The position numbers were made by a program, and so were the translations under genes. Source: Branchiostoma lanceolatum (taxonomy: Eukaryota > Chordata > Leptocardii > Amphioxiformes > Branchiostomatidae). From it: a stretch of 64,000 nucleotides of DNA. A model generated the notes under the pieces. It saw nothing but the letters and a program-made list of their open reading frames with translations. It had not been told where the DNA came from and made no database searches. Within the stretch, counting starts at the first letter, position 1; each line of letters begins with the position of its first letter. The stretch is taken from positions 13,567,029-13,631,028 of the forward strand of contig NC_089737.1 of NCBI RefSeq assembly GCF_035083965.1, in the 5' to 3' direction. Below, piece by piece: positions 45,701 through 48,700 of the stretch.

Positions 45701-48700
45701 AAGGGACCACCAGAAAGTGGTTAAAATAACCAGGGGATCCTTATTGAGAGGAGATCACTGGCTTTGTTGGTAATGCAGTTCTTTGTAAGTCCCGCATGGC
45801 TATGCATAAGTCACATTCTACACAATGTATATATCGTTTGTTTTTACGCTTTAAATGTCTCAATTCGGAAGCAAGTCTCTGTTTCCTCTAACCCCCCCCC
45901 CCCTTATCTTAGGTTTTCGGTCCTTTCTCCAAATGTTCTGTTTACTATACTACAAGCGCCTCCAATTCGTTCCTGACCCTTGGTCATTAGACCTTGGTAA
46001 CCATACACCTGAAATAATGAATGAAACCGCAACCCTTGCCGGAATTGCTAGATGTCCCCATTCAACGTTCAAACCAAATACACATATCCTAAATAGCTCG
46101 GCCGAAATGATGACTGAACCCGCCCGTACCTTCGGCGCCCGTCCGTGGTACCCGAACCTGAGGAGTCGCTGCTCCGCCAGCTGCCAGTCCTGGTCCGTGT
46201 CGATGTCGATGCTGTAGTCGGAGTCCATCACGAGACACCCCATCCGCCCTCCCTGCAATCAAAAACAAGATGTCCAAACCATACGTTAGATACAACAACA
46301 TCTGAGGAGGGAAACGGAAACATTGAGGAGGAGTTTCTACAAGCTCCACGTCTCTAGTGAACATTTAGAAGGGTTAGAGTTAGGGTTATAAGGCGTAAGT
46401 ATGTTACCTGTAAGACCCCCTGTTGTTCCACGTCCCTCGTGAATATGTAGAACGCGCCGTTCTCTATCAGCTCTCCCGGCCACTGCTGACGCCTTGGTCG
46501 GTTGTACGGGTCAAAGTTCAGGGGAAAGGTCTGCATTCCTAGAAATTAAAAGGAAAAAGAAAACTTTTATACAATACTCATTTTTACACATTTCTGTCTA
46601 TTGCAAGAACGTTCGGACAAATGGGAATTGTTGACAAGTGAAGGAAACAAAATCGGACGCTACTCCCAAAAAGTAACTAGTCATTTCGTGGGATCTTGAA
46701 CTCTGACCTAGACCATAATGCACCACGACTGCACATGCGCACTCGGATCTGTGAGAGGGTTTATAGATACGCTTCTGAATTTGCCGAGTTGACAAAGTCA
46801 GTATCCCGGCAAAAAAGACGCATATCATTATATTTTCTCCGTCGTTTTAGCTTCATACTTTTTCGGATATCACAATCGCTACGTTACTATCATAATGAAA
46901 CCTCCGAGCCCTGAATTCTCACCATATCTGGTATTGCCCAGCGGAGTGATGACGTTTGTACACCGAGAAGACGGAGTTCTTACTCACCATATTTGGGTGC
47001 TGACCAGCGGAGTTGATGACGCCTGTACTCACCATATTTGGGTGCTGACCAGTGGAGTTAATGACGTCTGTACTCACCATATTTGGGTGCTGAACAGCCG
47101 AGTTGATGACGCCTGTACTCACCATATTTGGGTGCAGACCATCGGAGTCGATGACGTCTGTACTTACCATATTTGGGTGCAGACCAGCGAAGTTGATGAC
47201 GTCTGTACTTACCATATTTGGGTGCAGACCAGCGAAGTTGATGACGTCTGTACTTACCATATTTGGGTGCAGACCAGCGGAGTTGATGACGTCTGTACTC
47301 ACCATATTTGGGTGCTGACCAGCGGAGTTGATGACGACGTCTGTACTTACCATATTTGGGTGCAGACCAGCGGAGTTGATGACGTCTGTACACCGAGAAC
47401 ACGGAGTCCTTTCCGTCCTGTAGCATCATGCGCACTCCCTCCTGCACGTGGAACGGGTGCACGCAGGGGCAGGTTGCCTAGGAAACAGACGTGTCGTTGG
47501 CGTCCTTTAGTGAGTTCTACATTGCATCTTGGAAATCTTTTGTTGATTTTCTTTTGTCAATGATAGCTACCAATTGCAATATGGCAAAAACCGTCAAATT
47601 TTATCAGCCTAGCTCTTGTAGACTTGTCAAAGAAAAGGCCCATTGCAGTTCCTAAAACGTTGCTAGGAGTCCAAACCTATACCGTTTCTTTATGAGCCCA
47701 AAATTTATCTATCACTCAAACATTATGCCCAAAGCATGCCCAGAACATGAGATATCATTGCTGCAGTCGCAAAGGAACAAACAAACGAACATGAAAACAT
47801 AACCTTCTTGGCGAAGGTATAGAATGATACAAAATAAATGAATCTTTCCCTCTGTCAAGGGCAAAACCAAACAACCCTAAGTCTTAATCGTGATACCTGA
47901 ATGTGGACGATGATGTCGACTTCCGGATGGTTCCTGACGAACTCGTCTATGGCGGTCCAGGAGTTGCACTTGTCGTGAGACACCTGTGACGACCGCCTGT
48001 GCACCTGCGCACCACACCTGCGCGCTACCGCCGCGATGTCGTCATGGTCGGTGGACACCCACACGCTAGAGGTATGATATACAGTAGATTCCTCTTATTG
48101 ACATAGACTGATTCGTCAGTGTATTTTATGCAACAATAAGGAGTAGTCCATTAACCCTAGGGGACAAAATGAGCTGCACCGAGGGGGGAGGGGGTTGTAG
48201 TGGTTACCAGGATGGCACTTGAAATAACCACATACACTTTGTTTCAAATTCATTCACTCCCAGGTTATACAAAATTTAACATATCGAATCCATAAGCATA
48301 TCATCAGTAAATGTAAATGTAAATGTAAATATATTATAAGCTCCATCTGTCGTCACATGTACATTTGTCTGAAGACAACTGTGATTGTAAGGTCGGCTGG
48401 GAAAGAAGCGAGAAAAAGTTTAGCCTTACATTAGTATGCATAGACATAGAGGACGTTCAGGAATTGCACTAGAGATAGAGACAGACAGACAAGCAGGCAG
48501 AGATAGACATGCAGGCAGACGACAGACTAACAGACAAACAGAGACGGACAGACAGAAAGACAGACAGGCAGACAGACTAACAGGCAAACAGAGACGGACA
48601 GACTGAGAGACAGACAGAGACAATGAGAAAGACAGAGACAAACAGACCAGCAAAGAAGGCAAAAAAACAAAACAAATAGTCAACTGCCATGGGTGAAATA

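Follow-up and report, generated by a model that had tools for sequence, protein, structure and literature searches.

A 45-bp minisatellite carrying 5′ splice sites at an exon-intron boundary of amphioxus CMAS-B, probably a further "mirage"

An internal exon of the amphioxus gene CMAS-B is followed by an array in which the end of the exon and its 5′ splice site (donor) are repeated in tandem. The array lies in the 64,000-nucleotide stretch of DNA that we analysed, hereafter called the window, which also holds a paralogue, CMAS-A. We regard it as a further amphioxus-type mirage, in which splicing would proceed through the first donor while the other copies remain intronic, and give this reading a probability of roughly 0.8. 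The sequence itself shows the anatomy of the array, the lengths of the exons and the pattern of variation among the units; the order of events, use of the first donor and length polymorphism are our interpretation. Because the boundary repeats of amphioxus are reported to leave splicing undisturbed, the CMAS-B array is most likely intronic rather than the source of a variable enzyme.

CMAS-B is located on the minus strand (43158..49155) and CMAS-A in the opposite orientation on the plus strand (27973..33115), the mapped parts being approximately 10 kb apart. Nine consecutive exons were set by hand on AG/GT sites in each copy, those of CMAS-B being internal ones, between the first and the last exon of the gene. 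When the first donor of the array is taken, every mapped exon (9 of 9) has a counterpart of equal length in the other copy. Joined together, the exons of either copy give an open frame of 376 residues, across which the proteins show 74% amino acid identity. Conservation is lowest in the exon that bears the array (60% amino acid identity, A versus B). The dN of 0.159 and dS of 0.969 between the paralogues point to purifying selection acting on the normal CMAS protein.

The CMAS-B protein matches mouse CMAS (1qwj, E 2.9e-82; C-terminal part 3ewi, E 1.1e-29) and the Pfam family CTP_transf_3 (PF02348, 2e-26); its C-terminal part gave no Pfam match at 0.01. Its identity as CMAS is thus given by a cytidylyltransferase part (PF02348, 1qwj) together with a C-terminal phosphatase-like part (3ewi). 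Both parts match the mouse protein, which, as aligned, contains no repeat block. As side observations, the donor of CMAS-B exon x7 at 45228 (minus strand), GTCTGT, is weak (predicted U1 pairing -5.5) compared to GTAAGA in CMAS-A (-9.6), and an inverted repeat at 30946-31314, with arms of about 106 bp that are 96-97% alike, starts right after a CMAS-A exon.

The exon that adjoins the array, here x4 and in the original prediction exon 5, is 127 bp in length (47351..47477, minus strand), with an AG acceptor before 47477 and GTAAGT after 47351. The CMAS-A exon at 29420-29546 is likewise 127 bp. The acceptor partner of the array donors is that of exon x5 (46408..46538, minus strand).

The array itself (46918-47391, minus strand) consists of nine clear units of 45-48 bp and one diverged unit of 65 bp, every one of them made up of the CMAS exon end and a GTRAG donor. 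Tandem Repeats Finder places the repeat at 46981-47391 with a period of 45, 9.1 copies and 92% matches, and the motif GGT[AG]AG occurs ten times on the minus strand of 46881-47560, the last exon bases of donors 1-10 being 47351, 47303, 47258, 47213, 47168, 47123, 47078, 47033, 46988 and 46923. The nine clear and one diverged donor-bearing units that had been proposed are therefore confirmed. There are indeed ten donors, but the first of these "units" is the exon's own end, leaving nine extra copies, one of which is diverged. In the minisatellite proper (46981..47391, minus strand), 40 bp of exon end are followed by the 5 bp GTRAG, in nine clear copies if the exon's own end is counted; all are 45 bp except unit 2, which is 48 bp owing to an additional GTC. 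The outermost copy (46918..46982, minus strand) reaches approximately 20 bp farther up the exon, carries the weaker donor GTGAGA, and adjoins the remaining intron; 46918-46981 matches 47346-47411 at 83%. GGTRAG is retained in 10 of 10 copies, and the splice signal is thus repeated along the whole array.

After the units were cut and aligned, unit 1 proved identical to unit 3 and unit 4 to unit 5, while unit 2, lying between the identical units 1 and 3, belongs to another type. Units that lie close together are no more alike than units farther apart (r 0.05, a value reached in 1876 of 5000 permutations). That units 1 and 3 agree despite the differing unit 2 points to exchange within the array, in which the exon's own end would be included.

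When each donor was joined in silico to the next exon, no stop was met with donors 1-7, which lengthen the exon by 0, 48, 93, 138, 183, 228 and 273 bp, that is, by 0 to 91 residues in open frame. The exon frame is closed by a TAA in unit 8 (47058..47060, minus strand), which is carried by the products of donors 8-10; donor 10, at +428 bp, is also out of frame. In this the original prediction, of seven open donors and about 91 residues followed by a TAA, was correct.

Predicted U1 pairing is practically equal for donors 1-9 (-10.5 to -10.8) and lower for donor 10 (-8.1). Outside the array, none of the 403 other GT dinucleotides in 49155-43159 matches the array donors in predicted pairing; the strong donor of exon x10 at 43158 (-11.1) falls just beyond the stretch that was scored. 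Given the equality of donors 1-9, use of the later ones is compatible with the sequence alone, and among the features tested the first donor (GTAAGT, 47345..47350, minus strand) is distinguished by its position only. This donor yields the exon length of the paralogue, and the protein without any added block aligns to mouse 1qwj, interrupted near the junction by no more than a 2-residue gap, from which we infer that the functional donor is most likely the first one (47350). The sequence supplies a conserved exon end; it does not prove that the first donor is used exclusively. Conservation of the donors gave no sign of use either way, one of nine donor columns being variable (P=0.35 for one or fewer).

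In amphioxus, mirages are exon-intron boundaries that have been duplicated in tandem in the manner of a minisatellite (PMC3087553; this and the other papers cited here by PMC number are represented by partial text). They affect Adh3, with units of 10-72 bp, and the globin genes Gb6 and Gb9; either the donor or the acceptor side can be involved, and the published unit range is 10-160 bp (PMC3087553). The same text describes haplotypes of 6 and 3 units for a globin-gene mirage, somatic instability of the Adh3 mirage, and clusters with diverged edges (PMC3087553). The Adh3 and RT-PCR results given there suggest that mirages do not disturb regular splicing, and it is pointed out that the repeated signals could serve as cryptic sites (PMC3087553). 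In PGBD5, boundary repeats of 60 bp and 108 bp have been reported in a paper that also cites the TnC mirage and states, in the part available, that the Adh and TnC mirages yield no aberrant mRNAs; for PGBD5 this is an inference only, and an extra 57-residue exon proposed there by a gene predictor was set aside by the authors without transcript evidence (PMC3902484). Tandem repeats are noted in amphioxus huntingtin, with no mirage mentioned in the available text (PMC2206037).

The CMAS-B array agrees with these descriptions in several respects: its unit spans an exon-intron boundary (the boundary itself being deduced from paralogue A), the 45-bp unit falls within the 10-160 bp range, and homogenised inner units (the identical pairs above) are accompanied by a diverged edge unit of 65 bp. 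It differs in being found in another gene, in that every copy carries a GTRAG donor and seven of these lie in an open frame, and in copy number, which is ten compared to 6 and 3 in Gb6 and up to 7 in PGBD5 in the partial texts. By analogy with the published mirages, the length of the CMAS-B array is likely to be unstable. The statement that no such case had been described holds for CMAS: among the open-licence literature matches listed for amphioxus CMAS, boundary-spanning or donor-bearing minisatellites and competing donors, none describes an array of this kind in that gene. It does not hold for the kind of structure, which had already been described in amphioxus Adh3, TnC and globins, with like repeats in PGBD5 (PMC3087553, PMC3902484, both in part).

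We envisage that tandem duplication of the exon-intron boundary, comprising the 3′ end of the CMAS-B exon and its donor, formed the minisatellite, the order of events being our reconstruction. The intact exon would have stayed joined to the first copy, and the diverged outermost copy would have come to lie beside what is left of the intron. Splicing would most likely proceed from the first donor and produce the normal 127-bp exon, the other copies staying intronic. Copies may since have been turned over by unequal exchange or conversion, a process that would cover the exon's own last 40 bp.

The alternative initially put forward is that the donors compete, giving CMAS-B isoforms with zero to six additional blocks of 15-16 residues, the choice shifting with allele length. 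Donors 1-7 are strong, in frame and open, the unit is a multiple of three, and the junction adjoins the small gap between the CMAS-B and mouse proteins. Human genes of segmental duplications contain variable internal tandem repeats, with units that average 30 bp and are repeated 4 times; they lie within exons or where an exon meets an intron, and some of them alter splicing (PMC2812944, partial text), so that an effect of the CMAS-B array on splicing is possible in principle. The human repeats differ from this array in belonging to primate-specific duplicated genes, and half of them lie inside coding exons. The open frame itself had to be rejected as evidence of coding. The exon frame runs through the array for 139 codons before its TAA, and two other frames are longer, one of 168 codons on the minus strand and one of 256 codons on the plus strand; openness is cheap in a 45-bp repeat and not special to the exon frame. 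Nor was coding selection seen among the units: the ten variable columns of the nine clear units (unit 2 taken without its GTC) comprise 4 synonymous, 5 nonsynonymous and 1 stop in the exon frame, against an expected synonymous share of 0.24 (P=0.20 for a synonymous excess, with low power). For the published amphioxus mirages, moreover, splicing is either stated to be normal or held to be so on suggestive results (PMC3087553, PMC3902484, both in part). A length-polymorphic or splice-variable enzyme is therefore unsupported and the less likely outcome, since the first donor restores the exon length of the paralogue and fits mouse CMAS; we consider the isoform family unlikely.

Partial use of donors 8-9, the strong ones nearest to the acceptor, could instead generate mRNA containing the TAA, so that array length would tune CMAS-B output by decay. 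In some systems the donor nearer to the acceptor of the intron is preferred. Both donors are as strong as the first, and the included TAA would lie upstream of further exon junctions. In DOK7, choice between two nearby donors depends on SRSF1 (PMC5585400, partial text). The lack of aberrant mRNAs stated for the Adh and TnC mirages (PMC3902484, in part) argues against such an outcome, which we hold to be quite improbable. More broadly, it seems unlikely that certain tissues or alleles splice from later donors, adding as many as six blocks with RRHQLRW (donors 2-7) or causing mRNA decay through the TAA (donors 8-9), so that the copy number of a fast-changing minisatellite would determine how long the enzyme is or how much of it is made. 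That the array was expanded or collapsed during assembly is very improbable: units have private substitutions, one has an in-frame GTC insertion, the edge unit is diverged, and the whole array is merely about 0.4-0.5 kb long.

With nine near-equal predicted donors at a spacing of 45-48 bp in one natural gene, the array in CMAS-B provides a clean test of 5′ splice site choice. Exclusive use of the first donor would mean that donor strength is overridden by exon context and position; use of later donors would place a sialic acid enzyme under the control of a minisatellite.

Boundaries other than that of x4 have local copies as well. Same-strand copies were found at 4 of the 18 CMAS-B boundaries (x2 acceptor, x2 donor, x4 donor, which is the array, and x10 acceptor) and at 0 of 18 in CMAS-A; requiring 8 bases on both sides reduces the CMAS-B count to 3/18 and leaves that of CMAS-A at 0/18. 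The x2 acceptor (49082..49764, minus strand) has three extra diverged copies upstream, two of which keep the AG. One extra copy of the x2 donor (48686..49038, minus strand) is found at 48686-48739, with 87% identity and the GT kept, and one of the x10 acceptor (43258..43818, minus strand) at 43761-43818, with 86% identity and the AG kept. For both x2 boundaries the extra copies sit in the introns flanking that exon.

Compared with the rest of the gene, the boundaries show no significant excess of local copies. The 4/18 of CMAS-B compares with 57 of 322 non-boundary stretches and the 0/18 of CMAS-A with 8 of 279, or, under the 8-base criterion, 3/18 with 40/322 and 0/18 with 6/279; judged by position, most of the 57 look like further copies from the families found at the boundaries, and nearly all of the 40 CMAS-B controls that cross belong to those four families too. 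A placement test was not significant either. Of its seven repeat families, which were hand-picked and of which three are rich in simple sequence, three cross a boundary by their BLAST ends, and at least three do so in about 26% of random placements. The x2 acceptor family was scored as non-crossing because its BLAST ends reach only a few bases beyond the boundary; with wider family ends it crosses, bringing the number to four, and at least four were obtained in 6.7% of placements (computed with BLAST ends).

A PRDM-like PR/SET frame (18979-19387, plus strand; Pfam PRDM2_PR 3.3e-27, PRDM4 3db5 3.6e-15) has a likely donor boundary that occurs three times, at spacings of 155 and 157 bp; each copy retains GTAAGA, starting at 19067, 19222 and 19379. 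With the four in CMAS-B, this brings the boundaries that have local copies in the window to five, in two unrelated genes, at a rate not significantly above chance. A brief look at repeats at 8665-8973, 23787-24252 and 57604-57813 revealed no link to a boundary. The second of these regions includes a 65-bp tandem repeat (23793-24106, 4.8 copies, 95% matches) with a diverged continuation to 24252, and in the third an 86-bp stretch occurs twice (86% identity) beside a cysteine-rich exon-like frame.
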